A stretch of DNA of 64,000 bases from Mayamaea pseudoterrestris (Eukaryota > Bacillariophyta > Bacillariophyceae > Sellaphorales > Sellaphoraceae), in the NCBI GenBank assembly GCA_027923505.1, contig BROI01000014.1:620001-684000 (forward strand), in the 5' to 3' direction. This document shows, piece after piece, positions 4,304 to 52,035 of this stretch. Position numbers and translations under genes: made by a program. Numbering within the stretch: position 1 is the stretch's first letter; each line of letters starts with the position of its first letter. The notes under the pieces were generated by a model. That model saw only the letters and a list, made by a program, of their open reading frames with translations, searched no databases and had not been told where the DNA came from.

Positions 4304-5779
4304 TTAATCACTGTCACTATCCATCATCATTGCTGAAAAGACACCACCACCGCTAGCCTTGGCAGCAGGCTTGGCTGCGACCGGCTTGCGAGACGCTGGT
4401 GTAGACCATTTCGTCGCTGTAGTCGCAACAGATTTGTATGCCCCTCCCGCTGGTGCCTTTGGTTTATTAGACATCTTACTCTTTTGCTGTTTTCGCTGAG
4501 ACTCCCACGCGGATCTGCTTGCTTGCACTCGAGCTTGGAAACCTTCGTCCGTTTCAAACCATCCGCGACTTGACTCCTATTGAATCAAGAAAAAGCTCCG
4601 TCAGAATGATGGTAAGATAATTTACACGGCATGATGATATAACATGTACTCACCTCAAGTGCCTCGATTTCAATGACAATTTCATCCTTTCGAGCCACCG
4701 ACTGAGATTCCTTGAGTGTCAATAAACGTCCCTTGGCTCCCTCCTCTATTGCTAATAAAGGCAGCATCTCCCTTCGCAGCTTTGCAATGTCCGACTCGTG
4801 CTTCAATGGATGCGGTGGGGATGTGCCAGTCTTTTCCAGCTTGGTCTTGCGTTCCTCTGCCTTGCCCTTTGCAATAGCAAGGTTCTCAACCCGTTTCTTC
4901 TTTCCTTCCTTTTCAGCTTCCGCAATTTCTTCCTTTAGGCTTTGTATACGCTCATCTACTTGGTCCAGTAGACTGCGTCGCTCCTCGACCGTGACGCGGC
5001 CATCCTCAACGTGCTTGTGCATGAGGTCGCGAACGAGAGTGAGCTTTTCTTCGAGCGACTTTAGCGAAACTGAATTGTAGAGCTCATCTTCCGCCTCGCT
5101 CAGTGGTGTTCCCTGCATAAGTTTCGTATCTAGTCCCTTGACAATATCAACAATTCCTTCAATCGCCTTGGCGCAACCCTTCTTTTGCGACCAAGACGGA
5201 CAAGTCGAAGCAATATTCTTTTCAAACACGTTGATACTAGAGTATGCAAGCTTGTACTCGTGCGAGCCCTCCGGAATCAATGCAGCTCCAAGGCTCATCT
5301 TTGCCATGTCCTTGCCAAGTTGATTGTTGCTTGCATTGACCTTTGGAAACACAACGACTGTTTTAAGATTCTTTCCGGTATCGTGCTGCAGCTTGAAAGA
5401 TCCTGCGCATTCCATGACAGCCGACGCTCCTCGATCTTCCTCGAAGTCACATTCTCGGAGCGTCGACGTTACCACCTTTGCAGCAGACTCGTCGTACTTT
5501 TGTCGACCAAGCTTGCCGGCGCCAACGATAAAGGTGATGCGGATCATTGTTTCGAGGTCAAAGGGATCGGAGAATGCATCGCGAATCGTGTTTTCAATAG
5601 TTTGAGGAGCCTGGCCAGCAAGATCAAAGGTTTCGCTTTCTGCAAATCAAAAGCAAGTCACGCAATTGTCAGTTGGAATACGACCGGTACGTGGGCAGCC
5701 ATTGCCAGTTCATCGTCGCAAACGACTCACCAGTCGTATTGCGAATGGACGCTGCCATTCCACTGACAGCATGCGACAT
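4304..5779 (-). CDS. Unrecognised coiled-coil protein, 435 aa
   Basis: Three exons (5779-5731, 5639-4654, 4576-4304) with GTGAGT donors and TTGCAG/AATAG acceptors; the phases fit and give 435 aa. I do not recognise the family. Residues 1-130 look like a folded domain with conserved-looking stretches (FDLAGQAPQTIENTIRDAF, then RGASAVMECAGSFKLQHDTG and KTVVVFP). Residues about 190-330 are a long charged coiled coil (EEKLTLVRDLMHKHVEDGR, EEIAEAEKEGKKKRV). The C-terminus is basic and Ala/Pro/Lys-rich and ends in an acidic MDSDSD. There is no signal peptide or membrane helix, so it is probably cytosolic or nuclear. Convergence of gene structure and globular N-domain says it is real; no function is offered. 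Confidence 0.75.
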
Positions 5780-6198: not shown

Positions 6199-7947
6199 AT
6201 GCCATCAAGACTATGGCTAGGAACGCTGGCGATATGTATTTGCAACACTTCAGATGCATTTCAAGCTGCAGCGCCGTCGATGAGAATAAGATCACTTTTT
6301 GCGACACCCAGAGCCACACGCGACACTGTTAAAGCGCCCGGAAAATCACGGAAAAAGGGAGCAAATAGCACCAAGAAACGACCAAATATATCTACGACAA
6401 GGTCAGATTCGCAAATACCCGGACCACGTCCCATTCTAACAGATTATGAAGCTAATCGCAACATTCACACCAACAAACAGCGACTCGTCCAAGATATTGG
6501 TTGTCCTCATTTCGGAACCTGCTCGGGATGCTCCGTTTCTGCGCAAGTTGGAAGTGTGGACACAATACAATCTGCAAGCCAATTCTTTTCAAGTACACTG
6601 GTACAACGCAGTCGGACTCGAACAAGCTCTACGTCGGAATGGGATGACGACGCATCCGATGAATTAGCGTATCCAATCATTGTTCCATCCCCGCTTGGAC
6701 AGTGGCGGACGCAAGCTAAACTAGCCGTTGCTCCAAAGTCGTCCTCATGGAACAAGGATGGGTGTAGCTTGGGTTTGTTTGCGCGTGGGACGCACAATGT
6801 GTTGCGCATTCCTGATTGTCGAGTCCATCATCCGTCCATCAACCGGGCCGTAGCGCTTCTGGAGGAAGCCTCGGCCAAAGTTGGAACGCCGGCATATACG
6901 GGAAAGCGTGAAGTGAGTTTGCGCTATGTACAGTTTCAAGTGGAACGTATTACCAATAAGGTTTGTTTGACGCTCGTTTGGAGTGCTGAATCCTTGAAGG
7001 ACACACATCCGCACCTCACGCGTCTGACCAAGGAGCTGCAGCGAACGGACCCAAAACTTTGGCATAGCATGTGGTGCCACTGTAACGACGGATCTGGTAA
7101 CAATATTTTCTCGAGAAACCCAAAACGATGGCATCACTTGTCGGGGCCAGAGTTTGTGCGTGAGCCACTGCCTGTCAGTGACAATGGGTGGCTGTACTTT
7201 TCGCCACTCAATTTCCGCCAAGCCAACATGGATGGCTTTGATATACTTGCCAGAGATGTAGCTCAAGCAGTTCCTGGGGGGTCCAAAGTATGTGAGCTGT
7301 ATGCTGGAGTCGGGTTGCTGAGCTTGACGGCGCTCGCCTATCATGCAGAGTTGGATCCCCTAGAATGGGTCCGCTGCAGCGATGAGAACCCATCCAATCC
7401 GAGATCATTTGAAAAAGCTGTTGAATCGATAGCTCCTGCTGTTACTGGGCGCAACACACGAGGCAAGCGTGCCAAAGAGGAAGAGACCATGACATTGGCG
7501 CAACTTGCGTCAATGATGGAATCTGGTGCACTGAGCAATGCCAAAACTACCACAACCGGAGACAAGATCAGCTACCTTGTCGCAGACGCAGCCAAAGCTC
7601 TGCAATTAGGTCAAGCGCTCGGTGCTAACGTCCTTATTGTTGATCCGCCCCGGAAAGGGCTGGAGCCAGCTGTGCTGAGTGAATTGTGCAAGCCTTTTAA
7701 TCGGGCACAGCCGTATGTCGAGTCATCCTCCGCGTTGGTAATGATACCCGAAGAACGAATCAACTGGGTTAACGATGTTGATACTCTCATATACGTGAGC
7801 TGTGGGTTTGACGCTCTCGCCCGAGATACGGAGGAGCTTGTGACAAGCAATGCTGGATGGAAAATTGAGAGTTCTACTGGATACGTCCTCTTTCCTGGCT
7901 CCAACCACGTGGAAACGATCTGTATATTCAAGCGTAAGCTGACATAG
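6199..7947 (+). CDS. TrmA/RlmD-type RNA (uracil-5-)-methyltransferase, probably plastid
   Basis: 582 aa, single exon. The N-terminus is a signal peptide ending 'NTSDAFQAAAPS', an ASAFAP-like plastid-targeting junction, followed by a basic linker. Fe-S cluster cysteines are Cys102, Cys108 and Cys111 (C-x5-C-x2-C). The SAM-binding motif VCELYAGVGLLSL begins near residue 364. The Asp-Pro-Pro-Arg motif (VDPPRKGLEP) and the catalytic nucleophile Cys535 in YVSCGFDALARD are both present, so the enzyme looks intact. The family makes 5-methyluridine in tRNA or 23S rRNA using SAM; plastid rRNA or tRNA is the likely substrate. A low-complexity insert sits between the SAM motif and DPPRK. Which uridine is modified cannot be told. 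Confidence 0.85.
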   Translation: MPSRLWLGTLAICICNTSDAFQAAAPSMRIRSLFATPRATRDTVKAPGKSRKKGANSTKKRPNISTTRSDSQIPGPRPILTDYEANRNIHTNKQRLVQDIGCPHFGTCSGCSVSAQVGSVDTIQSASQFFSSTLVQRSRTRTSSTSEWDDDASDELAYPIIVPSPLGQWRTQAKLAVAPKSSSWNKDGCSLGLFARGTHNVLRIPDCRVHHPSINRAVALLEEASAKVGTPAYTGKREVSLRYVQFQVERITNKVCLTLVWSAESLKDTHPHLTRLTKELQRTDPKLWHSMWCHCNDGSGNNIFSRNPKRWHHLSGPEFVREPLPVSDNGWLYFSPLNFRQANMDGFDILARDVAQAVPGGSKVCELYAGVGLLSLTALAYHAELDPLEWVRCSDENPSNPRSFEKAVESIAPAVTGRNTRGKRAKEEETMTLAQLASMMESGALSNAKTTTTGDKISYLVADAAKALQLGQALGANVLIVDPPRKGLEPAVLSELCKPFNRAQPYVESSSALVMIPEERINWVNDVDTLIYVSCGFDALARDTEELVTSNAGWKIESSTGYVLFPGSNHVETICIFKRKLT

Positions 7948-28011: not shown

Positions 28012-28534
28012 AGTGGTTGAAGGGCTGACAGCTGAGCAGTGTTGTGGGCGCACTGTGCACCGAGCGATGGTTCCAGAGTTGCGACTAGATATTTGCATAG
28101 ATATAAATGTTTGAGACAATGACTTATAAACGAAAGTATTACATATTCTATTAGTACGGCGACTGTAGGTTTGGTTTGACCATGTCAAAGCTTTGGAAGC
28201 GGTTCGATGTAAACATCTACCATTACGCAGTATGCTCCAACCTTACAAAGACTTTCACCTAGCTGGCTTTATCATCAACAGTACCTGCTGTAACTACAAA
28301 TGTGATGCGTAAAACGCGAGCCAAATAATCATTGTAACAAAAAATTCGACTGCTACTTAAATCCTGTGTCACATGCGCTAGTAGAGTACGTAGCCTCGAC
28401 CAACACCGGATCGTTAAACAAAATACTCTCCATTGATATTGCGAGCATAACCTATTCCAGCTGTAATTATATAAAATGAGTTGGATGAGACAAGTGAGCA
28501 AGTGGGGAGCAAAAGAGCACAATATCTTCTCAAG
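28012..28534. other. Convergent 3' region
   Basis: 523 bp between the stops of the EGF gene and of the dehydrogenase. AT-richer than the coding DNA. No gene or RNA seen; holds both 3' UTRs. Confidence 0.4.
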
Positions 28535-30036
28535 CTAAGCACTTGAAGACTTACGCGTCCCGAAGAGAATTCTCGAGCTCAATACACCGTCGATCATGGT
28601 CATGTTCCGTTGCAAATCCTTCAAGCACATTGCCTTTCCATCTTCATGCTTTGCTGGGTCAATGTCGATCACGTTGTAGGCAATGTTTCCGCGACTCTGG
28701 TTGATCTGCTGAGCAATATTGACGCCGGCAACAGCGCAGCAATCTGTAATCTTTGACAATACTCCAGGAATATTCTTGTTGACGACAGTCAGCCGGATAT
28801 GCGCCTCTTCTCGCTCTGGCATGCTGACATTAGGAAAGTTCACAGAGTTGCGAATCGTTCCGTGCTCAATGTATTGGCGAATCGTTTCTGCGGCCATGGC
28901 AGCCGCTTCGTCTTCGGCCTCTTCTGTAGAGGCACCAAGGTGTGGAAGAACAATGGACTTTTCGTGGTCCCACAAAATGTCATCCGGAAAGTCCGTCACG
29001 TACCGGCAAGTGCTTCCAGTGTCAAGGTAGTCCTTCATGGCGGCCGAGTCGACCAATTCACCACGGGCAAAGTTTAACAAGACGGCATCCTGCTTGAAAT
29101 GAGCAATCACATCGGCGCCAATGATTCCATGCGTGCCTCCTTCGTCCATGGTTCCTTTAATGTAGGGAATGTTTAAACTAATGTAATCCGCAGTCGCCAC
29201 GGCCGAAGCAATCGAGTCCGTCAAGATGGTTTCACGCGGAAGCTTCAACGCCGACTGTACCGAGAGACCCGGGTCATAGCCCTGCACTTTCATGCCAAGA
29301 GCGGATGCATCTCTTGCTGTTGCAGCTCCAATGTGTCCCAATCCAATGACGGCTAGCGTCTTGCCCTTGATTTCGCGACCGCCAAACATTGCCTTGTCCT
29401 TTTCAACACGCTCCTTGGCCAAGCCTTGCGACCCCAGCACTTTCATATGGTTGATTCCATCAACCACTCGTCTACTTCCAAGCAGCATGCCGCAAAGAAT
29501 CAACTCCTTGACAGCATTCGCATTCGCACCAGGTGTATTGAAGACTGGGATACCAAGTTCCGTCATGCGTGCCACTGGAACATTGTTGGTTCCAGCTCCG
29601 CATCGCGCAATGGCTCGCACCGAAACGTCCACCTCTGACTCTTGGAGCTTGTGCGACCGCAGCAGCAAGGCATGGGCAGGGCCAGCCGCGTCGGAAGCGG
29701 CGCTCACAGCGTAGAGTGTTTCGGGGAATCGAGCTAAGCCAACTGGCGAGATTTTGTTGAAGGTTTGGATGGCGTACTTTCCCGGTTTAATGTAGTCTAA
29801 AGAAATGATTGACGTAGTTTTAGAAACATTGCAATGCCTTCGCTCTTATCTGAATTCTTTATCGTCAGTATTCACTCACCTTGAATGTCCGTCACGTTCC
29901 AGCCCGATGTGTAATGGTCGACGTCGCAAGGAATTGGGCTCCAGCCTTCCGACAGGGAACTCATGCCCCGATAGGACGCACAGCGAAGGGCCGTCCTGGC
30001 CGACTGTCGCGAAAGGCTAGCCATCAAGAGACTCAT
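28535..30036 (-). CDS. serA: D-3-phosphoglycerate dehydrogenase, copy 1
   Basis: Exons 30036-29880 and 29796-28535 (GTGAGT...TTTAG, 83 nt), 472 aa. Catalyses the first step of serine synthesis, 3-phosphoglycerate to 3-phosphohydroxypyruvate with NAD. Arg/Ser-rich N-terminus (MASLSRQSARTALRCASYRG) suggests an organelle leader, most like a mitochondrial one. NAD motif IGLGHIGAATARD; active-site Arg in NFARGELVDS; active-site His in LPHLGASTEEAED. A C-terminal ACT domain (NKNIPGVLSKITDCCAVAG) may bind serine. The intron follows 'NVTDIQ', at a different place from that of copy 2. Confidence 0.93.
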
Positions 30037-30373
30037 GTTGATGGTGTCTGTAATACAATGGCGACGCTGCGAGTGGAAGATTCGTCGGCAAGTGTGATGG
30101 GCGCGCCTCTTTGGATGGCCGGAACGCTTTGTCGCTGCGCGTCACGTGCTTCCTCATGACGTCATTCAACGCATTTTCATTGGCTCGATTCAAAAACGTG
30201 CGGCGCGTCATGTTCGCGTGACCAATCGAATCGTGGATCGTTTCCTTCCTTCCCGACCATCAAACTGGAACGTTCCGACGACGCTGCGGCATGAGTCAAG
30301 CAAGGACGACGAAGGTGCAGCATTGAGCCATAATTTACTGGTACATAGCAACAGAGACAAATTGACAAGCATC
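30037..30373. promoter_or_regulatory. Shared promoter of the two serA genes
   Basis: 337 bp between divergent starts. It contains a CACGTG box (30143-30148) and, 8 bp on, the perfect palindrome ATGACGTCAT (30156-30165), a full CRE/ATF site for bZIP dimers. CCAAT-type sequences lie near 30179 (ATTGG) and 30221 (CCAAT). Position between two copies of one pathway gene suggests joint control; that is inference. Confidence 0.55.
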
Positions 30374-31903
30374 ATGTTGACGTCTCGTCCATTCGCCAAG
30401 CTCGCACGCTCCTCGGCCGGACGGACTGCATGCCTTTCATCGCACCGCTCCTTCTCCTCCATTGAGGTGGAACGCATTGAAGTCGAGCATGGCCGCGGGC
30501 AATGGAAAACCTACGGCGACGTTTCCAACTACACCCCCGGCAAGTACCAAGTCAAGACTTTCAACAAGATTAGTCCACTTGGATTGGCTAGGTTTCCGAC
30601 GGAGAAATACGAGATTCGTACCGACAAGCAGGAGGCGAGAAATGCGCATGCCATTATGCTGCGGTCGCACAAGTTGCAGGAGGACGAAGTGCCTCATACG
30701 GTGCGAGCGATTGCCAGGTACGAATAGCAATGATGAAGCTTGGATTGAGACTTGTGTGTGCAGCTGTGGATACAGCCACTTACCGAATCCTTATGTAATT
30801 CATTTCATGACAGATGCGGTGCAGGAACCAACAACATTCCAGTTGCTCGAATGACGGAACTTGGCATTCCAGTATTCAACACACCAGGAGCTAACGCCAA
30901 CGCTGTCAAGGAGCTTGTCTTGTGTGGCATGCTTCTGGGGAGTCGCCGTGTTGTGGACGGCATTAACCACATGGAAGAGCTGGGCAAGGCTGGAACGGCC
31001 AAGGAACGTGTCGAAAAGGACAAGGCCATGTTTGGTGGAAGGGAAATCGCTGGCAAAACATTAGCGGTTATTGGCTTGGGGCATATTGGAGCTGCCACGG
31101 CTCGGGATGCGTTTGCGCTTGGCATGAAGGTCAAGGGATATGACCCCGGCCTCAGTGTCAAATCCGCCCTTCAGCTGCCAAAGGACTTGGAGCTGTCGTC
31201 GTCCATTGTCGCTGCAGTCAAGGATGCCGATTACATTAGTATCAATATTCCATACATCAAGGGAGAGGGTGGAACACATGGTATCATTGGCGCTGATGTC
31301 ATTTCACACTTTAAATCGGATGCCGTCTTGCTAAATTTTGCACGTGGCGAGCTTGTGGATTCTGCGGCCATGAAGGACTTTTTAGACTCGTCTGCGGCAG
31401 GCCGATACGTTTCCGATTTCCCAGATGATTTGCTTTGGGACCATGCCAACGCAGTCATCCTGCCTCACTTAGGTGCATCGACCGAGGAAGCGGAAGATTC
31501 GGCTGCGGCCATGGCGGCAGATACAATCCGAGCCTTTCTGCAAACTGGAACAATCAAGAACTCTGTCAATTTCCCCGATACTGAGCTTGGACAGCTCACT
31601 ACTGGAACAACGGTGCGGTTTACCATTGTTAACAAGAACATCCCTGGTATGCTTTCCAAGATAACGGAGAAGTTTGCTGCAGAAGGCCTCAACATTCTGC
31701 AGCAGGTGAATCACTCTCGGGGCGACATTGCTTACAACGTTGTAGACATTGATACCTCGACACAAGACGATGTTCGCAGTTTCAAGTCTATACAAGAGAA
31801 GATCACCATGCTGGAAGGTGTTCTCAGCAGTCGCGTCATCTTTGGCAAACTTCCGCCAGGCACAGGCTACGCAAAGAACTTGGATGGAGAATACTTTGTA
31901 TAG
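30374..31903 (+). CDS. serA: D-3-phosphoglycerate dehydrogenase, copy 2
   Basis: Exons 30374-30717 and 30814-31903 (GTACGA...TGACAG, 96 nt), 477 aa. Same reaction and domains as copy 1: NAD motif IGLGHIGAATARD, NFARGELVDSAAMKDFL, LPHLGASTEEAED, C-terminal ACT domain (NKNIPGMLSKITEKFAAEG). The N-terminal leader (MLTSRPFAKLARSSAGRTA) differs and looks mitochondrial. The intron lies in 'RAIAR|CGAGTNN', where copy 1 has none. The high similarity and head-to-head order point to an inverted duplication; different introns say it is not recent, or that introns were gained or lost since. The C-terminus has a 14-residue extension. Confidence 0.93.
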
Positions 31904-36784: not shown

Positions 36785-37618
36785 TCATTCACGTAGAGAG
36801 CTGAGGAATATAAAATCATTACCAAGTCGATGAGACGTGGATTTAGCCGACAAGTCCAGTGGCCGAGCTCCGTACATCGGCGCAATTCCATGGCTTAATA
36901 ATTTAGGAGCGACCGTAACACAAAGTACATCCACCAAATTATTGTTGAATAGACTTGAGATGACTTGAGCGCCTCCTTCCACCATTAGCGTCTTGATGTC
37001 ATGGCGAAGCCACAGCTGAGCGAGCGCCTCCTTGATGTCGATTCTTCCGTCGGGCCCGCAAGGACACGGACAAAGTCGGACATTCGCCGGGAGAATGCTC
37101 ATAGAGTCAGCCGCTTGCTGACTGCAGCATACAATAAGACTCTCTACCCTCAGACATTCTTTCATTGATCTTAAAGAATGGAGGTTTGAATCGAGAGCGA
37201 CTGGAATTGGTTGTTGACGAGCTACACTTGAATGCGGATTCCAGAGTCGATTGTTTAGTCTTGGATTGTCCAAAGCAAGAGTTCTTCCTCCTATTAGTAT
37301 ACCGTCATGTAAAGAACGAATCGCATGTGTCAAGCGCATTGATTCTTCGCCGCTGAGTGGATAGTTGCTCGTCGTCTCAGATTTGGACGCATCCTTGAAA
37401 GGAGCCAACATTCCATTCAAGCTTTGAGCGAATGAGACTGTGATGATAGGAAGTGTGTTTTCGTTTCGTTCATTGGCGACAAGCTTATGCATGTTCTTCA
37501 TCTGATCAAGAATGTCGTCAATAGTGCGATCGCAGCAGCTGCTTCTCGGGTCGACAGCTTCGGCCATTGTGATATGACACACACCGAGAAATAGAAAGAT
37601 CAATATGACGCCAGACAT
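36785..37618 (-). CDS. RibD C-terminal-type riboflavin biosynthesis reductase
   Basis: 277 aa from the ATG at 37618 (frame is open upstream but without ATG). Signal peptide MSGVILIFLFLGVCHITMA, so probably secreted into the ER and perhaps routed to the plastid; no clear ASAFAP motif. The dihydrofolate-reductase-like fold shows ITVSFAQSLNGMLA, HDGILIGGRTLALDNPRLNN and TLMVEGGAQVISSLF, all markers of 5-amino-6-(5-phosphoribosylamino)uracil reductase. The deaminase half found in bacterial RibD is absent, as in fungal RIB7 and some plant proteins. NADPH-dependent. Substrate order (before or after deamination) cannot be told. Confidence 0.82.
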   Translation of the reverse strand: MSGVILIFLFLGVCHITMAEAVDPRSSCCDRTIDDILDQMKNMHKLVANERNENTLPIITVSFAQSLNGMLAPFKDASKSETTSNYPLSGEESMRLTHAIRSLHDGILIGGRTLALDNPRLNNRLWNPHSSVARQQPIPVALDSNLHSLRSMKECLRVESLIVCCSQQAADSMSILPANVRLCPCPCGPDGRIDIKEALAQLWLRHDIKTLMVEGGAQVISSLFNNNLVDVLCVTVAPKLLSHGIAPMYGARPLDLSAKSTSHRLGNDFIFLSSLRE

Positions 37619-38456
37619 TCTGCAGGCCAACTGGATACATAGTGGATCATGGTAACACCAATTTTGCAACTGCTTTGATACCGGAAAGCGTACTTGTATC
37701 GATTGATTGATTACTGTACAACAACATCATGCTTGCTGATGTCGAAACCAATAAAGGTCGCGCGATTGGAGAAGATTGTCGCACAGGTTTTAGCGATTAT
37801 GGAAAGCTATCAATGCCTTGACATTCAAACGCCCATAAAACATGCCATGTATACACCCAAATCATGCCAGAATGGTGCCAACATCATTATTCTGTCTGCG
37901 CTACATGATAGTATGCATGATGGGTGCCCTGGTAGACTGCAATGTGATTGGTGACAAGTTGTCACCAGTCTCAGCCTGCAGATGCCGTGACATTCAATTG
38001 CCCATAAAACATGCCATGTATACACCCAAATCATACCAGAATGCTGCCACCATCATTGTTCCGTCTGCGCTACAAGATGTTATGCTTGGTGGCTGCCCTA
38101 GTAGACTGCAATTTGATTGGTGACAAGATGTCACCAGTCTCAGCCCACAGATGCCATGACATTCAGACGCCCCCTACAGCAAGCCCGGTAGGTGCCCAAA
38201 TTACACCAGAATGGTGCCAACATCATTTCTCAGGCTGCGCTACAAGATTGTAGGCATGGCTGGTGTCTCAGGGGATGGCAATGTATTTGGTGACAACTTG
38301 TCACCAGTCTCAGCCCGCATATGCCATAACATTCAGACACACCTACAGCAAGCCCGGTAGGTGCCCAAATTACACCAGAATAGTGCCAACATCATTATTC
38401 AGGCTGCGCTACAAGATGGTAGGCTTGGCTGGCGTCTCAGGGGATGGCAATGTATT

Positions 38457-38475
38457 TGGTGACAACTTGTCACCA
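38457..38475. repeat. 19-nt palindrome present in each satellite unit (example)
   Basis: TGGTGACAACTTGTCACCA: two 9-bp arms around one base. Found at the same place in nearly every unit, including the diverged first one (37949-37967, centre base G instead of C). It is lost only in the last unit. Looks like a dimeric protein-binding site or a hairpin in a transcript. Confidence 0.85.
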
Positions 38476-41400
38476 GTCTCAGCCCGCAGATGCCATGACA
38501 TTCAGACACACCTACAGCAGGCCCTGTAGGTGCCCAAATTACACCAGACTGGTGCCAACATCATTTTTGAGGCTGCGCTACAAGATGGTAGGCTTGGCTG
38601 GTGGGTCTCAGGGGATGGCAATGGATTTGGTGTCAACTTGTCACCCGTCTCAGCCCGCATATGCCATAACATTCAGACACACCTACAGCAAGCCCGGTAG
38701 GTGCCCAAATTACACCAGAATGGTGCCAACATCGTTATTCAGGCTGCGCTACAAGATGGTAGGCTTGGCTAGTGTCTCAGGGGATGGCAATGGATTTGGT
38801 GACAACTTGTCACCAGTCTCAGCCTGCAGATGCCATGACATTCAAACGCCCCTACAGCAAGCCCTGTAGGTGCCCAAATTACACCAGAATGGTGCCAACA
38901 TCATTATTCAGGCTGCGCTACAAGATGGTAGGCTTGGCTGGTGTCTCAGGGGATGGCAATGTATTTGGTGACAACTTGTCACCAGTCACAGCCCGCAGAT
39001 GCCATAACATTCAGACGCCCCTACAGCAGGCCCGGTAGGTGCCCAAATTACACCAGAATGGTGCCAACATCATTATTCAGGCTGAGCTACAAGATGGTAG
39101 GCTTGGCTGGTGTCTCAGGGGATGGCAATGTATTTGGTGACAACTTGTCACCAGTCACAGCCCGCAGATGCCATAACATTCAGACGCCCCTACAGCAAGC
39201 CCGGTAGGTGCCCAAATTACACCAGAATGGTGCCAACATCATTATTCAGGCTGCGCTACAAGATGGTAGGCTTGGCTGGTGTCTCAGGGGATGGCAATGT
39301 ATTTGGTGACAACTTGTCACCAGTCACAGCCCGCAGATGCCATAACATTCAGACGCCCCTACAGCAGGCCCGGTAGGTGCCCAAATTACACCAGAATGGT
39401 GCCAACATCGTTATTCAGGCTGCGCTACAAGATGGTAGGCATGGCTGGTGTCTCAGGGGATGGCAATGTATTTGGTGACAACTTGTCACCAGTCTCAGCC
39501 CGCAGATGCCATGACATTCAGACACACCTACAGCAGGCCCGGTAGGTGCCCAAATTACACCAGAATGGTGCCAACATCATTATTATGGCTGCGCTACAAG
39601 ATGGTAGGCTTGGCTGGTGTCTCAGGGGATGATAATGTATTTGGTGACAACTTGTCACCAGTCTCAGCCCGCAGATGCCATGACATTCAGACACACCTAC
39701 AGCAGGCCCTGTAGGTGCCCAAATTACACCAGAATGGTGCCAACATCATTTCTCAGGCTGCGCTACAAGATGGTAGGCATGGCTGGTGTCTCAGGGGATG
39801 GCAATGTATTTGGTGACAACTTGTCACCAGTCACAGCCCGCAGATGCCATAACATTCAGACGCCCCTACAGCAGGCCCGGTAGGTGCCCAAATTACACCA
39901 GAATGGTGCCAACATCATTATTCAGGCTGAGCTACAAGATGGTAGGCTTGGCTGGTGTCTCAGGGGATGGCAATGTATTTGGTGACAACTTGTCACCAGT
40001 CTCAGCCCGCAGATGCCATGACATTCAGACACACCTACAGCAAGCCCGGTAGGTGCCCAAATTACACCAGAATAGTGCCAACATCATTTTTCAGGCTGCG
40101 CTACAAGATGGTAGGCTTGGCTGGCGTCTCAGGGGATGGCAATGTATTTGGTGACAACTTGTCACCAGTCTCAGCCCGCAGATGCCATGACATTCAGACA
40201 CACCTACAGCAGGCCCTGTAGGTGCCCAAATTACACCAGAATGGTGCCAACATCATTTTTGAGGCTGCGCTACAAGATGGTAGGCTTGGCTGGTGTCTCA
40301 GGGGATGGCAATGTATTTGGTGACAACTTGTCACCAGTCTCAGCCTGCAGATGCCATGACATTCAGACACACCTACAGCAAGCCCGGTAGGTGCCCAAAT
40401 TACACCAGAATGGTGCCAACATCATTATTCAGGCTGCGCTACAAGATGGTAGGCTTGGCTGGTGTCTCAGGGGATGGCAATGTATTTGGTGACAACTTGT
40501 CACCAGTCTCAGCCTGCAGATGCCATGACATTCAAACGCCCCTACAGCAAGCCCTGTAGGTGCCCAAATTACACCAGAATGGTGCCAACATCATTATTCA
40601 GGCTGCGCTACAAGATGGTAGGCTTGGCTGGTGTCTCAGGGGATGGCAATGTATTTGGTGACAACTTGTCACCAGTCACAGCCCGCAGATGCCATAACAT
40701 TCAGACGCCCCTACAGCAGGCCCGGTAGGTGCCCAAATTACACCAGAATGGTGCCAACATCATTATTCAGGCTGAGCTACAAGATGGTAGGCTTGGCTGG
40801 TGTCTCAGGGGATGGCAATGTATTTGGTGACAACTTGTCACCAGTCTCAGCCCGCAGATGCCATGACATTCAGACACACCTACAGCAGGCCCGGTAGGTG
40901 CCCAAATTACACCAGAATGGTGCCAACATCATTTCTCAGGTTGCGCTACAAGATGGTAGGCTTGGCTGGTGTCTCAGGGGATGGCAATGTATTTGGTGAC
41001 AACTTGTCACCAGTCTCAGCCTGCAGATGCCATGACATTCAAACGCCCCTACAGTGGCCCTGTAGGTGCCCAAATTACACCAGAATGGTGCCAACGTCAT
41101 TATTCAGGCTGCGCTACAAGATGGTAGGCTTGGCTGGTGTCTCAGGGGATGGCAATGTATTTGGTGACAACTTGTCACCAGTCTCAGCCCGCATATGCCA
41201 TAATATTCAGACGCCCCTACAGCAAGCCCGGTAGGCGCCCAAATTTCACCAGAATGGTGCCAACATCATTATTCAGGCTGCGCTACAAGATGGTAGGCTT
41301 GGCTGGTGTCTCAGGGGATGACAATGTATTTGGTGACAACTTGTCACCAGTCTCAGCCTCAGATGCCATGACATTCAGACACACCTACAGCAGGCCCTGT

Positions 41401-44400
41401 AGGTGCCCAAATTACACCAGAATGGTATTAACATCATTTCTCAGGCTGCGCTACAAGATGGTAGGCTTGGCTGGTGGGTCTCAGGGGATGGCAATGGATT
41501 TGGTGTCAACTTGTCACCAGTCTCAGCCCGCATATGCCATAACATTCAGACACACCTACAGCAAGCCCGGTAGGTGCCCAAATTACACCAGAATGGTGCC
41601 AACATCATTATTCAGGCTGCGCTACAAGATGGTAGGCTTGGCTGGTGTCTCAGGGGATGGCAATGTATTTGGTGACAACTTGTCACCAGTCTCAGCCTGC
41701 AGATGCCATGACATTCAAACGCCCCTACAGCAAGCCCTGTAGGTGCCCAAATTACACCAGAATGGTGCCAACATCATTATTCAGGCTGCGCTACAAGATG
41801 GTAGGCTTGGCTGGTGTCTCAGGGGATGGTAATGTATTTGGTGACAACTTGTCACCAGTCACAGCCCGCACATTCAGACGCCCCTACAGCAGGCCCGGTA
41901 GGTGCCCAAATTACACCAGAATGGTGCCAACATCATTATTCAGGCTGCGCTACAAGATGGTAGGCTTGGCTGGTGTCTCAGGGGATGGCAATGTATTTGG
42001 TGACAACTTGTCACCAGTCTCAGCCCGCAGATGCCATGACATTCAGACACACCTACAGCAGGCCCTGTAGGTGCCCAAATTACACCAGAATGGTGCCAAC
42101 ATCATTTTTGAGGCTGCGCTACAAGATGGTAGGCTTGGCTGGTGTCTCAGGGGATGGCAATGTATTTGGTGACAACTTGTCACCAGTCTCAGCCCGCAGA
42201 TGCCATGACATTCAAACGCCCCTACAGCAGGCCCTGTAGGTGCCCAAATTACACCAGAATGGTGCCAACATCATTATTCAGGCTGCGCTACAAGATGGTA
42301 GGCTTGGCTGGTGTCTCAGGGGATGGCAATGTATTTGGTGACAACTTGTCACCAGTCTCAGCCCGCAGATGCCATAACATTCAGACGCCCCTACAGCAAG
42401 CCCGGTAGGTGCCCAAATTACACCAGAATGGTGCCAACATCATTAATCAGGCTGCGCTACAAGATGGTAGGCTTGGCTGGTGTCTCAGGGGATGGCAATG
42501 TATTTGGTGACAACTTGTCACCAGTCTCAGCCTCAGATGCCATGACATTCAGACACACCTACAGCAGGCCCTGTAGGTGCCCAAATTACACCAGAATGGT
42601 ATTAACATCATTTCTCAGGCTGCGCTACAAGATGGTAGGCATGGCTGGTGTCTCAGGGGATGGCAATGTATTTGGTGACAACTTGTCACCAGTCTCAGCC
42701 CGCAGATGCCATGACATTCAAACGCCCCTACAGCAAGCCCTGTAGGTGCCCAAATTACACCAGAATGGTGCCAACATCATTTTTGAGGCTGCGCTACAAG
42801 ATGGTAGGCTTGGCTGGTGTCTCAGGGGATGGCAATGTATTTGGTGACAACTTGTCACCAGTCTCAGCCCGCGCAGATGCCATGACATTCAGAACACACC
42901 TACAGCAGCCCTGTAGGTCGCCCAAATACACCAGAATGGTGCCAACATCATTTTCAGGCTGCGCTACAAGATGGTAGGCTTGGCTGGTGTCTCAGGGGAT
43001 GGCAATGTATTTGGTGACAACTTGTCACCAGTCTCAGCCCGCAGATGCCATAACATTCAGACGCCCCTACAGCAAGCCTGGTAGGTGCCCAAATTACACC
43101 AGAATGGTGCCAACATCATTTCTCAGGCTGCGCTACAAGATGGTAGGCATGGCTGGTGTCTCAGGGGATGGCAATGTATTTGGTGACAACTTGTCACCAG
43201 TCTCAGCCCGCAGATGCCATGACATTCAGACGCACCTACAGCAGGCCCTGTAGGTGCCCAAATTACACCAGAATGGTGCCAACATCATTTTTCAGGCGGC
43301 GCTACAAGATGGTAGGCTTGGCTGGTGTCTCAGGGGATGGCAATGTATTTGGTGACAACTTGTCACCAGTCTCAGCCCGCAGATGCCATGACATTCAAAC
43401 AGCCTACATCAGGCCCTGTAGGTGCCCAAATTACACCAGAATGGTGCCAACATCATTTCTCAGGCTGCGCTACAAGATGGTAGGCTTGGCTGGTGTCTCA
43501 GGGGATGGCAATGTATTTGGTGACAACTTGTCACCAGTCTCAGCCCGCAGATGCCATGACATTCAGACACACCTACAGCAGGCCCTGTAGGTGCCCAAAT
43601 TACACCAGAATGGTGCCAACATCATTTCTCAGGCTGCGCTACAAGATGGTAGGCTTGGCTGGTGTCTCAGGGGATGGCAATGTATTTGGTGACAACTTGT
43701 CACCAGTCTCAGCCCGCAGATGCCATGACATTCAAACGCCCCTACAGCAAGCCCGGTAGGTGCCCAAATTACACCAGAATGGTGCCAACATCATTATTCA
43801 GGCTGCGCTACAAGATGGTAGGCTTGGCTGGTGTCTCAGGGGATGGCAATGTATTTGGTGACAACTTGTCACCAGTCTCAGCCCGCAGATGCCATGACAT
43901 TCAGACGCCCCTACAGCAAGCCCGGTAGGTGCCCAAATTACACCAGAATGGTGCCAACATCATTTTTAGGCTGCGCTACAAGATGGTAGGCTTGGCTGGT
44001 GTCTCAGGGGATGGCAATGTATTTGGTGACAACTTGTCACCAGTCTCAGCCCGCAGATGCCATGACATTCAGACACACCTACAGCAAGCCCGGTAGGTGC
44101 CCAAATTACACCAGAATGGTGCCAACATCATTTTTCAGGCTGCGCTACAAGATGGTAGGCTTGGCTGGTGTCTCAGGGGATGGCAATGTATTTGGTGACA
44201 ACTTGTCACCAGTCTCAGCCCGCAGATGCCATGACATTCAGACACACCTACAGCAAGCCCTGTAGGTGCCCAAATTACACCAGAATGGTGCCAACATCAT
44301 TTTCGAGGCTGCGCTACAAGATGGTAGGCTTGGCTGGTGTCTCAGGGGATGGCAATGTATTTGGTGACAACTTGTCACCAGTCTCAGCCCACAGATGCCA

Positions 44401-47400
44401 TGACATTCAGACGCCCCTACAGCAAGCCCGGTAGGTGCCCAAATTACACCAGAATGGTGCCAACATCATTTTTGAGGCTGCGCTACAAGATGGTAGGCTT
44501 GGCTGGTGTCTCAGGGGATGGCAATGTATTTGGTGACAACTTGTCACCAGTCTCAGCTCGCAGATGCCATGACATTCAGACGCCCCTACAGCAAGCCCGG
44601 TAGGTGCCCAAATTACACCAGAATGGTGCCAACATCATTTCTCAGGTGGCGCTACAAGATGGTAGGCTTGGCTGGTGTCTCAGGGGATGGCAATGTATTT
44701 GGTGACAACTTGTCACCAGTTTCAGCCCACAAATGCAATAACATTCTGACGCCCCTACAGCACCCAGCTCCCACTACGAGATGGTGCCAACATCATTATT
44801 GTCGCTACAAGATGGTAGGCTTGGCTGGTGTCTCAGGGGATGACAATGTATTTGGTGACAACTTGTCACCAGTCTCAGCCTGCAGATGCCATGACATTCA
44901 GACACACCTACAGCAGGCCCTGTAAGTGCCCAAATTACACCAGACTGGTGCTAACATCATTTTTGAGGCTGCGCTACAAGATGGTAGGCTTGGCTGGTGT
45001 CTCAGGGGATGGCAATGTATTTGGTGACAACTTGTCACCAGTCTCAGCCCACAGATGCCATGACATTCAGACGCCCCTACAGCAAGCCCGGTAGGTGCCC
45101 AAATTACACCAGAATGGTGCCAACATCATTTTTGAGGCTGCGCTACAAGATGGTAGGCTTGGCTGGTGTCTCAGGGGATGGCAATGTATTTGGTGACAAC
45201 TTGTCACCAGTCTCAGCCTGCAGATGCCATGACATTCAAACGCCCCTACAGCAAGCCCTATATGTGCCCAAATTACACCAGAATGGTGCCAGCATCATTA
45301 TTCAGGCTGCGCTACAAGATGGTAGGCTTGGCTGGTGTCTCAGGGGATGGCAATGTATTTGGTGACAACTTGTCACCAGTCTCAGCCTGCAGATGCCATG
45401 ACATTCAGAAACACCTACAGCAGGCCCTGCAGGTGCCCAAATTACACCAGAATGGTGCCAACATCGTTTTTGAGGCTGCGCTACAAGATGGTAGGCTTGG
45501 CTGGTGTCTCAGGGGATGGCAATGTATTTGGTGACAACTTGTCACCAGTCTCAGCTCGCAGATGCCATGACATTCTGACACACCTACAGCAGGCCCTGTA
45601 GGTGCCCAAATTACACCAGAATGGTGCCAACATCATTTCTCAGGTTGCGCTACAAGATGGTAGGCTTGGCTGGTGTCTCAGTGGATGGCAATGTATTTGG
45701 TGACAACTTGTCACCAGTCTCAGCCCGCAGATGCCATAACATTCAGACGCCCCTACAGCAAGCCTGGTAGGTGCCCTAATTACACCAGAATGGTGCCAAC
45801 ATCATTTTTGAGGCTGAGCTACAAGATGGTAGGAATGGCTGGTGTCTCAGGGGATGGCAATGTATTTGGTGACAACTTGTCACCAGTCTCAGCCCACAGA
45901 TGCCATGACATTCAGACGCCCCTACAGCAAGCCCGGTAGGTGCCCAAATTACACCAGAATGGTGCCAACATCATTTTTGAGGCTGCGCTACAAGATGGTA
46001 GGCTTGGCTGGTGTCTCAGGGGATGGCAATGTATTTGGTGACAACTTGTCACCAGTTTCAGCCCGCAAATGCAATAACATTCTGACGCCCCTACAGCAAG
46101 CCCGGTAGGTGCCCAAATTACACCAGAATGGTGCCAACATCATTATTCAGGCTGCGCTACAAGATGGTAGGCTTGGCTGGTGTCTCAGGGGATGACAATG
46201 TATTTGGTGACAACTTGTCACCAGTCTCAGCCCGCAGATGCCATGACATTCAGACACACCTACAGCAGGCCCTGTAGGTGCCCAAATTACACCAGAATGG
46301 TGCCAACATCGTTTTTGAGGATGCGCTACAAGATGGTAGGCTTGGCTGGTGTCTCAGGGGATGGCAATGTATTTGGTGACAACTTGTCACCAGTCTCAGC
46401 TCGCAGATGCCATGACATTCTGACACACCTACAGCAGGCCCTGTAGGTGCCCAAATTACACCAGAATGGTGCCAACATCATTTCTCAGGTGGCGCTACAA
46501 GATGGTAGGCTTGGCTGGTGTCTCAGGGGATGGTAATGTATTTGGTGACAACTTGTCACCAGTTTCAGCCCGCAAATGCAATAACATTCGCACCGGCCCG
46601 TAATCCAGAATGGTGCCAACATCATTATTCGGTCTGCTACAAGATGGTAGGCTTGGCTGGTTCTCAGGGAGACAAACTTGCACCCGCAGGTGCCATGACA
46701 TTCAGACACACCTACGAGGTGCCCAGTGTCTAAATTACACCAGAATGGTGCCAACATCGTTTTGAGGCTGCGCGACAAGATGGTAGGCTTGGCTGGTGTC
46801 TCAGGGGATGGCAATGTATTTGGTGACAACTTGTCACCAGTCTCAGCTCGCAGATGCCATGACATTCTGACACACCTACAGCAGGCCCTGTAGGTGCCCA
46901 AATTACACCAGAATGGTGCCAACATCATTTCTCAGGTGGCGCTACAAGATGGTAGGCTTGGCTGGTGTCTCAGGGGATGGCAATGTATTTGGTGACAACT
47001 TGTCACCAGTCTCAGCCCGCAGATGCCATGACATTCAAACGCCCCTACAGCAGGCCCTGTAGGTGCCCAAAATACACCAGAATGGTGCCAACATCATTAT
47101 TCAGGCTGCGCTACAAGATGGTAGGCTTGGCTGGTGTCTCAGGGGATGGCAATGTATTTGGTGACAACTTGTCACCAGTCTCAGCCTGCAGATGCCATGA
47201 CATTCTGACACACCTACAGCAGGCCCTGTAGGTGCCCAAATTACACCAAAATGGTGCCAACATCATTTCTCAGGTTGCGCTACAAGATGGTAGGCTTGGC
47301 TGGTGTCTCAGTGGATGGCAATGTATTTGGTGACAACTTGTCACCAGTCTAACCCCGCAGATGCCATGACATTCAAACGCCCCTACAGCAGGCCCTGTAG

Positions 47401-48271
47401 GTGCCCAAATTACACCAGAATGGTGCCAACATCTTTATTCAGGCTGCGCTACAAGATGGTAGGCTTGGCTGGTGTCTCAGGGGATGGCAATGTATTTGGT
47501 GACAACTTGTCACCAGTCTCAGCCCGCATATGCCATAATGTTCAGACGCCCCTACAGCAAGCCCGGTAGGTGCCCAAATTACACCAGAATGGTGCCAACA
47601 TCATTTTTGAGGCTGCGCTACAAGATGGTAGGCTTGGCTGGTGTCTCAGGGGATGGCAATGTATTTGGTGACAACTTGTCACCAGTCTCAGCCCGCAGAT
47701 GCCATGACATTCAGACACACCTACAGCAGGCCCTGTAGGTGCCCAAATTACACCAGAATGGTGCCAACATCATTTCTCAGGTTGCGCTACAAGATGGTAG
47801 GCATGGCTGGTGTCTCAGGGGATGGCAATGTATTTGGTGACAACTTGTCACCAGTCTCAGCCAGTAGATGCCATAACATTCAGACACACCTACAGCAAGC
47901 CCGGTAGGTGCCCAAATTACACCAGAATGGTGCCAACATCATTATTCAGGCTGCGCTACAAGATGGTAGGCTTGGCTGGTGTCTCAGGGGATGGCAATGT
48001 ATTTGGTGACAACTTGTCACCAGTCTCAGCCCGCAGATGCCATGACATTCAGACACACCTACAGCAGGCCCTGTAGGTGCCAAAATTACACCAGAATGGT
48101 GCCAACATCATTTTTGAGGCTGCGCTACAAGATGGTAGGCTTGGCTGGTGTCTCAGGGGATGGCAATGTATTTGGTGACAACTTGTCACCAGTCTCAGCC
48201 CGCAGATGCCATAACATTCAGACGATGGTGGTGCCTAAATTACACCAGAATGGTGCCAACATCATTTCTCA

Positions 48272-48445
48272 CTGGGTTCACGGTCGAGGTTCACGCCTCG
48301 ATCGTCAGCGATTTCACTCATGTATGTGAGGATTCGGTCACAAGTGTGACTCAACCCTGCACAGGATTAAATGCATACAAAACACAGGTAGCTAACCGTC
48401 TTGTCATAAGACGCAGGTCAACTCAACTCAATAATATTGTGTCAC
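48272..48445. other. Non-repeat block inside the satellite array
   Basis: About 174 bp that do not match the 169-bp unit. It breaks in after CATTTCTCA on the left and gives way to AAATTTCACCAG on the right. Unit landmarks on the two sides are 209 bp apart, 40 more than one period. Contains TCGAGG-TTCACG-CCTCGA (48284-48301) and GTCACA-AG-TGTGAC (48337-48350). No ORF, and no terminal repeats or target duplication beyond the unit itself. Confidence 0.7.
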
Positions 48446-50023
48446 AAATTTCACCAGAATGGTGCCAACATCATTAATCAGGCTGCGCTACAAGATGGTA
48501 GGCTTGGCTGGTGTCTCAGGGGATGACAATGTATTTGGTGACAACTTGTCACCAGTCTCAGCCCGCAGATGCCATAACATTCTGATGCCCCTACAGCAAG
48601 CCCGGTAGGTGCCCAAATTACACCAGAATGGTGCCAACATCATTTTTGAGGCTGCGCTACAAGATGGAAGGCTTGGCTGGTGTCTCAGGGGATGGCAATG
48701 TATTTGGTGACAACTTGTCACCAGTCTCAGCCATCAGATGCCATGACATTCAGACACACCTACAGCAAGCCCGGTAGGTGCCCAAATTACACCAGAATGG
48801 TGCCAACATCATTATTCAGGCTGCGCTACAAGATGGTAGGCTTGGCTGGTGTCTCAGGGGATGGCAATGTATTTGGTGACAACTTGTCACCAGTCTCAGC
48901 CCGCAGATGCCATGACATTCAGACACACCTACAGCAGGCCCTGTAGGTGCCCAAATTACACCAGAATGGTGCCAACATCATTTTTTCAGGCTGCGCTTCA
49001 AGATGGTAGGCTTGGCTGGTGTCTCAGGGGATGACAATGTATTTGGTGACAACTTGTCACCAGTCTCAGCCCGCAGATGCCATGACATTCAGACACACCT
49101 ACAGCAGACCCTGTAGGTGCCCAAATTACACCAGAATGGTGCCATCATCATTATTCAGGCTGAGCTACAAGATGGTGGGCTTGGCTGGTGTCTCAGGGGA
49201 TGGCAATGTATTTGGTGACAACTTGTCACCAGTCTCAGCTTGCAGATGCCATGACATTCAGACACACCTACAGCAGGCCCTGTAGGTGCCCAAATTACAC
49301 CAGAATGGTGCCAACATCATTATATAGGCTGCGTTACAAGATGGTAGGCTTGGCTGGTGTCTCAGGGGATGGCAATGTATTTGGTGACAACTTGTCACCA
49401 GTCTCAGCCCGTAGATGCCATGACATTCAAACACACCTAGCGGCCCTTAGTGCCCAATTCAGACATGGTGCCAACATCATTATTAAGGCGGGCTACAAGA
49501 TGGTAGGCTTGGCTGGTGTCTCAGGGGATGGCAATGTATTTGGTGACAACTTGTCACCAGTCTCAGCCCGCAGATGCCATGACATTCAGACACACCTACA
49601 GCAGGCCCTGTAGGTGCCCAAATTACACCAGAATGGTGCCAACATCATTATTCAGGCTGCGCTACAAGATGGTATGCCTGGCTAGTGTCTCAGGGGATGG
49701 AAATGATATTGGTGACAACTTGTCACCAGTCTCAGCCTGCAGATGCCATGACATTCAAACACACCTACAGCAGGCCCTGTAGATGCCCAAATTACACCAG
49801 AATGGTGCCAACATCATTGTTCCATCTGCGCTACAGGATGGTACGCCTGATGGGTGCCCTTGTGGACTCCAACACAATGTGACTGGTGAAAACTTCTCGG
49901 CATAAAACATGCCATGTATACATCCAAATTACACCAGAATGGTGCCAACATCCTTACTCAGTCTGCGCTACAAGATGGTATGCCTGATGGGTCTCAGCCC
50001 ACGGACACCAGCCTTGACATTGA

Positions 50024-50612
50024 AGCACTACTCTCAATTGTGCAAACCTCTGTTTCTAGGAAAATAATTATCATATACCCTATGCTCTTTATGTCTGCTG
50101 CTGACTCAGCACAATAGTCTCATTCCCGACTGTTCCTTCATGATCACTGCTCGTATCGCTTATTTGCTTGCCCACTTGAAACTTAATGATGGATTTGCTC
50201 ATGCACTTGCCAACTGGCATCCAACACTCTCCTCCATGAGCACCTCCTAATTCTCTAAACTCTACAAAATTGCCGTGCATTGCCAGCTAGTTGGTGCTCT
50301 CCTCATCGCCGCTCTCCATCAAGAAACTGTACTGGTATAGATACATGTACAGTTCTTTAGGGATGAGACAAACTAAGCACTGGTCCAGACAAGCCACTGA
50401 ATATTTAGTTGGTGGATTGCAGTGGTAACGGAATGCGAAAGTGGACTTGTTCAGCTACAGTAATCATTTAGAAATGCGTGCCCATACCTTCAAACCAGAA
50501 AAAACCAGCCTTACTGTTAGGCAAATGAATGTACATTGGCTTGGCGCATACTTTGTTTATAGGTGACAAGTATTCAGTTGGCAGCGTATCTACCCATACA
50601 AACCAGACTTGC
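50024..50612. other. Intergenic after the satellite
   Basis: 589 bp of unique sequence between the array and the metallophosphoesterase stop. It may hold a 3' exon of that gene (see that entry). No other gene seen. Confidence 0.4.
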
Positions 50613-51818
50613 TTACCGTTCACGCTGATATCGTCCAGGTTTGACATCTTGCAGACGCTTCTGCAGCGCTTCTCGGCCGCCACCCTTTTCGTCCCAGTAC
50701 CGCAGCACCTGCTCACCTTTCACTTCTCCGCGTCGTGTATCCCATACAAGTTGAAAATCAACTTGCGGGTTCACCATGTGCAATTGCCGCTCGCGAGGCT
50801 TCCCAAGCGGATTGTGAATGTAGCGAACACCGTCGAAATCAAAATCTTTGGGTCTATGCGAGTGACCAAATATGTGCATGTGACGGCGGCCAGCAATCGG
50901 CAGAGAACGTAACTGTTGGCCAATGAGCTCGCTCCCTGCTACCTTGGCAAACTTGGCGGACATGTCGCCGGCGCCATGGTCGAGCCAATCCAGCGAAAAA
51001 TCATCCTGCTCCAAGTCAATCCAATCGGGTAAAGACTGCTTGTTTGGCAAAAAATGTGACACCGTCATTAATGCTGCTGAAGAATACTCATCAATTAGTG
51101 TGAATTGTCGCGTATTTCGCTCCAGCAAGTGCTCCGTCAAGCCAATGGGAATGCGAGCAGTAGACTCTATTTCGCTCGGGGGGGAATTGCGCCATCGACA
51201 TCGTAAAAAATCCACCCAAGGCCAGTGCCGAAAACCTTTTGAAAGATCATTGGAAAAACATAGACTCCCATCGTACCAGCTTTGTATTGGTAGTACCAAA
51301 AGCGACTGTCTGCCGTTGACAAGACAAGGATCCACCATGACGCCAAGCGTTCGACACTCATCGTAAACTTGTTCCATTTTCTCAAGCGAGTCAAACTCGT
51401 CTTGCTTGTTCAGCCAAGCCTCGTGGTTGCCACAGATGAAAAAGACATGACATCGGTCTTGCATGTAGCGCATCGACCTTCGAAAAACATCCATGTCGTG
51501 CGAAATATCACCAGCCACAATGAGCAAGTCTCGTTTCGTCCAATGATGCTCATCCATTTTCTCTCGAAGCCACTTTAGATTGTCGACGTGATCCGTATGC
51601 AAGTCGCTGAGGCAAAATACTCGGTCAACGTTGTTTAAACAATGATGGAGTGGAAGGCTTGATTCTTCGTCGACTGTGGACAATGTGGACGTGGTGTCGT
51701 GGAGTGCATAAATGCGTCTACTAATAAGTCGTTTGCTCGTCAGCGATACATGTTCAAATGAATGTGTCTGGTCTAGAAGAAGCGTCAGATAGCTCAGATA
51801 TAGCCATGGTATTTGCAT
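50613..51818 (-). CDS. Calcineurin-like metallophosphoesterase
   Basis: 401 aa from the ATG at 51818, where a signal peptide begins (MQIPWLYLSYLTLLLDQTHSFEHV); 'THSF' may be a weak plastid junction. The two-metal site of the family is complete: D-x-H in FCLSDLHTDH, GDISHD, GNHEAW, and GHSHRP near the C-terminus. Substrate unknown; such enzymes hydrolyse phosphomonoesters or diesters. The stop at 50613 overlaps a good splice donor (GAACG|GTAAGC). Splicing to an acceptor at CTAACAG near 50514 would replace the last residue by about 14 others ending at 50468. I keep the unspliced form as default. Confidence 0.85.
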   Translation of the reverse strand: MQIPWLYLSYLTLLLDQTHSFEHVSLTSKRLISRRIYALHDTTSTLSTVDEESSLPLHHCLNNVDRVFCLSDLHTDHVDNLKWLREKMDEHHWTKRDLLIVAGDISHDMDVFRRSMRYMQDRCHVFFICGNHEAWLNKQDEFDSLEKMEQVYDECRTLGVMVDPCLVNGRQSLLVLPIQSWYDGSLCFSNDLSKGFRHWPWVDFLRCRWRNSPPSEIESTARIPIGLTEHLLERNTRQFTLIDEYSSAALMTVSHFLPNKQSLPDWIDLEQDDFSLDWLDHGAGDMSAKFAKVAGSELIGQQLRSLPIAGRRHMHIFGHSHRPKDFDFDGVRYIHNPLGKPRERQLHMVNPQVDFQLVWDTRRGEVKGEQVLRYWDEKGGGREALQKRLQDVKPGRYQRER

Positions 51819-52035
51819 AGTGAGCGATGAATGAAAGCAGACGAAGGGCAGGACATTTTTGACGAAAAAATGAAACGGATCGTCGCGCGTCAAACGTGCT
51901 CGATGTCGCACCGCAACTCATTCTGCACGCTTCATTCGGTCAATCCCCACCATGGCAAAACAACGAAACAACGACTAATCTCTATACTACCGGTAGTAAC
52001 AGATAAAAGCTATTTACTACATACCTGCATACAAA
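51819..52035. promoter_or_regulatory. Compact divergent promoter with ACCGGT palindrome
   Basis: 217 bp between divergent starts. Contains the perfect 14-nt palindrome TACTACCGGTAGTA at 51985-51998, about 40 bp before the Prp22 ATG. The same core CTACCGGTAG occurs at 31973-31982. Confidence 0.45.

Follow-up and report, generated by a model that had tools for sequence, protein, structure and literature searches.

A 64,000-nucleotide stretch of contig BROI01000014.1 of the diatom Mayamaea pseudoterrestris (assembly GCA_027923505.1, positions 620,001 to 684,000), called the window below, contains a block of tandem 169-bp units that we name Sat-A. Sat-A is the main dispersed satellite of this genome, and the block in the window is one of about a hundred or more arrays (estimate ~150). 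Judging from the sequence, we propose with a probability of about 0.7 that Sat-A is a dispersed cytosine-methylated satellite whose arrays would lie as silent islands among the genes and may contain a binding site resembling the CENP-B box. Provided that the estimate is right, one satellite, set directly against housekeeping genes, makes up nearly 5% of this compact genome of 30.6 Mb. Sat-A would then offer a natural system for the confinement of silent islands beside active genes and for the spread of a satellite without a visible carrier, with a short palindrome as a possible mark.

Sat-A forms long arrays scattered over the genome

In the window, about 69 head-to-tail units extend from 37,813 to ~50,020, with a unit length of 169 bp, about that of one nucleosome. 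Tandem Repeats Finder (TRF) resolved three blocks of period 169 (37813-46589, 52.1 copies; 46683-48223, 9.1 copies; 48445-49843, 8.3 copies) with 92-93% matches between units, and older, diverged units form the edges of the array and carry it out to its right-hand limit. Anchoring on the 17-bp palindrome of the unit, GGTGACAACTTGTCACC, with up to 3 substitutions allowed, gave 69 copies, mostly spaced by 168-171 bp, a few spacings being 153, 159, 278 and 363 bp. Over the whole genome (41 contigs, 30.63 Mb, the window lying on contig 14), the exact palindrome was found at 7,671 places and the same letters read backwards at 0, which excludes a chance origin of the array. TRF, the palindrome anchors and this genome-wide count thus confirm the 12-kb satellite of 169-bp units, in about 70 head-to-tail copies, that a preliminary description of the window had reported. 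With long head-to-tail arrays of one unit present in high copy number, Sat-A is satellite DNA. The palindrome is exact in 88% of 593 sampled units, and the extrapolated Sat-A total of ~8,700 units amounts to 1.5 Mb, which is 4.8% of the 30.6-Mb genome.

Locus positions were sampled by five rare-variant patterns (80, 28, 31, 22 and 54 matches, 215 in total), which after merging at 20 kb gave 96 loci on 36 of the 41 contigs (104 loci with a merging distance of 10 kb and 90 with 40 kb). The corresponding Chao2 estimates were 154 loci at 20 kb, 198 at 10 kb and 146 at 40 kb, and 98 loci were obtained once the matches of the unit and palindrome searches had joined the rare-variant set. Two or more loci are present on 24 contigs, with up to 6 per contig and three on the contig of the window. 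The placement of the 98 loci is indistinguishable from random (variance/mean 0.95 against 0.95 under the null; coefficient of variation of gaps 1.04 against 0.98) and involves both strands, with palindrome matches dividing into 3,924 and 3,747, a strand call that is unreliable for copies mutated at the central base because it is read from that single base. Heterogeneity between all contigs gave P = 0.22, and an over-dispersion seen in a 12-contig subset (P = 0.04) was gone with all 41; a weak regularity could nevertheless be hidden because about one third of the estimated loci were unsampled. An excess was observed near contig ends, with 14 loci within 25 kb of an end against 6.6 expected (P = 0.007). 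The preliminary description had named, as evidence against its proposals, a unit dispersed at many non-centromeric loci lacking CENH3, methylation or small-RNA signal, and it is the dispersal half of this statement that the whole-assembly search bears out.

CpG depletion as a likely scar of DNA methylation

The observed/expected ratio of CpG is 0.27 in the array of the window against 1.05 outside; per 1-kb bin, it ranges from 0.22 to 0.35 in 11 array bins and from 0.81 to 1.27 in 50 outside bins. Sat-A also shows an excess of TG+CA (1.72 against 1.17-1.19), so that it displays the CpG depletion with TpG/CpA excess of a DNA-methylated repeat. At the 3 CpG sites of a sample consensus, the mean for C>T changes is 0.094 and that for G>A changes 0.176, compared with 0.015 at the 42 other C and 0.023 at the 39 other G, respectively. 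A low CpG ratio (0.14-0.39) is likewise found in 8 of the 10 other repeat stretches that lie beside arrays, and these other families provide independent support for methylation because the depletion of the Sat-A consensus counts as a single event. The genome encodes DNMT5-like, DNMT2-like and HhaI-like methyltransferase genes. The DNMT5-like call relies on the only PDB match at E <=0.001, 7r76 (E = 5e-40), whose entry name is DNA repair protein Rad8 and which we take to be Cryptococcus Dnmt5. In the excerpt used of published work on diatoms, transposon islands are highly CG-methylated and the rest of the genome is unmethylated (PMC9998398).

The CpG pattern is likely to represent scars of DNA methylation, and we suggest that the arrays carry or once carried CG methylation, for which the DNMT5-like enzyme is the probable source, and that they lie between genes as small heterochromatin islands. 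The CpG depletion and the DNMT5-like gene indirectly favor the heterochromatin or silencing element that the preliminary description had listed among its possibilities. Beside the array, the non-repeat segment between it and the right-hand gene (window 50023-50600) holds 11 CpG against 26 expected, with no such deficit on the left; this may be due to spreading or to remnants of old satellite.

The palindrome is the least divergent part of the unit

Divergence along the unit was measured in 615 and 593 units aligned by two anchors, leaving out 21 positions above 10%. Divergence is lowest in the palindrome, at 1.06% (19 positions) compared with 3.01% for the background (129 positions; p = 5e-8, a generous value because neither units nor positions are independent), and the palindrome lies below the background in 13 of 13 arrays. 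The 10 other repeat stretches next to arrays contain no copy of the palindrome at up to 5 substitutions. The unit has somewhat more dyad symmetry than shuffled sequences (longest arm 9 bp, P ~0.025). In alpha satellite, the CENP-B box is a short motif under constraint within a unit of nucleosome size, and the Sat-A palindrome is perhaps a protein-binding site of this kind, although Sat-A has another sequence and dispersed arrays, and its binding protein is putative. Such a protein could keep the array silent or phase its nucleosomes.

Units resemble their array neighbors, and 14 array flanks share no common module

The array loci fetched for comparison were picked from strong matches and are all kilobases long. 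Among 13 of them, Sat-A divergence is 7.5% within arrays and 9.5% between arrays, and in the sampled units higher-order repeats were not seen, divergence being flat by lag. Arrays end at many unit phases, as judged by blastn block boundaries, with no fixed phase, and 14 array flanks of up to 1 kb each contain no common left or right module. The sole matching pair (the right flank on contig C18 and the left flank on C7) shares another repeat. We suggest that new arrays would be seeded by copied pieces of existing arrays, which would then grow by unequal exchange. Near an N stretch of contig C1 (L010 7746-10000, L011 1-2498), Sat-A is broken by GC-rich odd sequence, after which the strand flips; these interruptions are either real decay or the product of poor assembly quality.

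Alternative explanations and related satellites

Several observations weigh against a methylated, protein-bound satellite. CpG loss in the 169-bp consensus counts as one event, multiplied by copying of the unit, the methylation scars are read from mutation only, the CpG polymorphism comparison involves only 3 sites, and depletion is weaker in two of the 10 other repeat stretches (0.50 and 0.71). Non-CpG positions (48, 53, 63, 109 and 134) are among the most variable of the unit. Long terminal repeat (LTR) pieces within arrays are CpG-normal (0.98-1.21), so that either these pieces are recent or methylation is absent from the arrays at present. Among relic units (identity below 88%), other segments are kept better than the palindrome, which ranks 12th, 32nd and 8th among 153 windows (n = 6, 17 and 40), so its constraint, if real, is limited to living arrays. 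The nearest neighbor of a unit lies in the same array for 69% of units against 9% by chance, and therefore exchange between loci is limited; the proposed mechanism of spread, probably circle excision with reinsertion or ectopic recombination, is hypothetical. The two largest contigs hold 10 loci against 18.5 expected. The variable non-CpG sites, the LTR pieces and the relic units would also suit a neutral junk satellite, dispersed by chance, unmethylated and unbound, in which a founder accident accounts for the CpG poverty and recent homogenization for the apparent constraint on the palindrome. We consider this unlikely, since CpG poverty recurs in the other repeats beside arrays and in several families at contig ends, CpG sites change on average more than other C or G, and the palindrome lies below background in every array. 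At the other extreme, the arrays could be functional elements of the chromosomes: a palindrome-binding protein would assemble at least 100 nucleosome-phased methylated islands, which would either seed polycentric kinetochores or act between genes as nodes of silencing or insulation. We regard this as quite unlikely.

The preliminary description had also suggested a centromere. A satellite centromere of its chromosome would agree with the nucleosome-sized unit, with a conserved palindrome that resembles the CENP-B box in kind and with the likely methylation scars. Moreover, Sat-A lies in the outer 60 bp of 11 of the 82 contig ends (all ends were read) and the C1 array continues into an N stretch of at least 7,500 positions, possibly a gap, so the assembly may lack larger arrays. 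Array sizes were measured at few loci, and each chromosome could have one array that exceeds the others. Because the assembly often breaks at arrays, Sat-A is probably undercounted. The many loci, several of them on single contigs (which may be less than chromosomes) instead of one site each, their random placement and the genes that flank the array, with the candidate start codon of a RibD-domain frame ~195 bp away, make a centromere highly improbable, and the suggestion finds no support here. Nor is any part of the window markedly AT-rich, its lowest 500-bp GC (0.398, at 28076) being outside the array, and the centromeres of Phaeodactylum are reported to be short and AT-rich (PMC7082073; all cited papers are used here in excerpt). 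Unit length alone is no ground for naming a centromere. That the arrays serve as numerous small centromeres on holocentric or polycentric chromosomes is also very unlikely. The model here is Tyba of Rhynchospora, which, like Sat-A, forms many kilobase arrays per chromosome with a unit of similar length (172 bp; PMC11538461), and Sat-A shares with this model arrays between genes on both strands and dyad symmetry. Tyba is, however, evenly distributed in domains of about 20 kb and colocalizes with CENH3 (PMC11538461), whereas Sat-A is placed at random over all contigs rather than evenly (a regularity would be blurred, some two thirds of the estimated loci having been sampled), and the Phaeodactylum centromeres (PMC7082073) again argue otherwise. 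The remaining comparison is with Cg170/Cg_HINE of the Pacific oyster Crassostrea gigas, in which ~165-bp units (165-168 bp in most cluster consensus sequences) are scattered genome-wide in both orientations and carried by Helentron flanks (PMC7492417). Sat-A arrays carried by non-autonomous Helentron elements would agree with the similar unit size and scatter, but the array ends at many phases and the fetched arrays, with tens of units against an oyster maximum of 29.3 (PMC7492417), make this the most improbable of these explanations; a Helentron or other carrier was discarded for lack of a conserved module among the 14 flanks.

Dispersed satellites are already known in insects and bivalves. 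The 1.688 satellites of Drosophila and those of Tribolium resemble Sat-A in forming arrays near genes in euchromatin, but euchromatic arrays in Drosophila mostly have six repeats or fewer (PMC10048060), whereas the fetched Sat-A arrays are kilobases long and CpG-depleted. Among stramenopiles, Phytophthora parasitica has PpSat1 and PpSat2, the arrays of the latter lying near gene-rich regions as those of Sat-A do; they differ in their units (~330 and 143 bp), of which that paper's sets contain 504 and 426 full copies (PMC7290008). Among the matches listed from the open-licence literature, seen in excerpt, none reported a Sat-A-like satellite from diatoms or algae related to them, which does not imply absence from print.

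Features of the window and its genes

The coordinates of the array and its neighbors are collected in Table 1. The edge motif CATAAAACATGCCATGTATACA occurs at 23 places in the genome with at most 1 mismatch and at 0 in the backwards control. The LTR-like fragment within the array is identical to positions 2542-2714 and 5240-5412 of array locus L021, where an LTR-like repeat of ~330 bp with ends TGACAC...GTGTCA is present twice.

Table 1. Positions in the window of the Sat-A array and adjacent genes, and contig ends bearing Sat-B
Feature	Position	Strand	Source
RibD C-terminal domain (PF01872) open frame	36785..37726	-	ORF list, Pfam
Two diverged edge units with CATAAAACATGCCATGTATACA; core units differ there	37813..38140	+	sequence reading
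Sat-A array, main part	37813..48271	+	TRF, palindrome anchors, blastn block boundaries
173-bp fragment of LTR-like repeat inside array	48272..48444	.	100% identity to locus L021
169-bp array resumed	48445..49856	+	TRF, blastn block
Diverged right-edge satellite with edge motif CATAAAACATGCCATGTATACA; outer limit approximate	49857..50022	+	sequence reading, motif search, blastn
Calcineurin-like phosphoesterase domain open frame; 3' end towards right edge of array	50613..51917	-	ORF list, Pfam
Sat-B ends	C4 L041, C9 L046, C10 L082, C11 L048, C17 L053, C18 L087, C20 L056, C30 L062, C31 L100		

The array does lie between ordinary genes, as had been proposed, with the RibD-domain frame (candidate start codon ~37618) and the phosphoesterase-domain frame at its two sides; a light-dependent protochlorophyllide reductase homolog is also encoded in the window, which speaks for a photosynthetic organism. 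Around arrays, 11 of 20 selected flank open reading frames (ORFs) had a Pfam match and 9 had none, the matches including uL14, calreticulin, ubiquitin-S27a, the Tsr1/BMS1 C-terminal domain, cyclin and a sugar transporter. No transposon domain was present among the 11 matched ORFs. The earlier statement that no transposon surrounds the array of the window is not fully correct, since this array holds the LTR-like piece. A 204-aa open frame crosses units at 41128-41742 and is probably due to chance; the unit length of 169 bp is not a multiple of 3. In one consensus, no AA/TT/AT/TA period was detected near 10.2 bp (nearest peaks 12.07 and 9.39 bp). Neither Rfam families (at gathering scores) nor tRNA genes were found within the window, an exact 30-mer of the unit had 0 matches in viral contigs (records near this genome excluded), and a telomere boundary pattern of CCCTAA repeats gave 0 matches.

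A second satellite at contig ends

A second satellite, Sat-B, occupies one end on each of nine contigs; its period is 164-181 bp at eight of these ends, and all nine are 67-90% identical to a repeat in locus L009. Sat-B is also internal to contig C1 (L009 4960-6895 and 7843-8853), ~1 kb from a Sat-A array. Its orientation is outward relative to the contig end in all nine cases (two-sided P = 0.004, excluding a 32-bp match at C6R), and because of this constant orientation Sat-B is likely subtelomeric, which fits better than a broken centromere. Further CpG-poor repeats of 182, 173 and 147 bp stand at three other contig ends, within a wider set of ends with CpG-poor repeats (L094, L063, L065, L058, L077 and L054), and the genome seems rich in nucleosome-sized satellites. 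Finally, the window contains two phosphoglycerate-dehydrogenase-like regions in opposite orientation (28535-29845 and 30098-31903, the Pfam scan having covered the second only), which form a local inverted duplication with 69% identical DNA over 960 bp.

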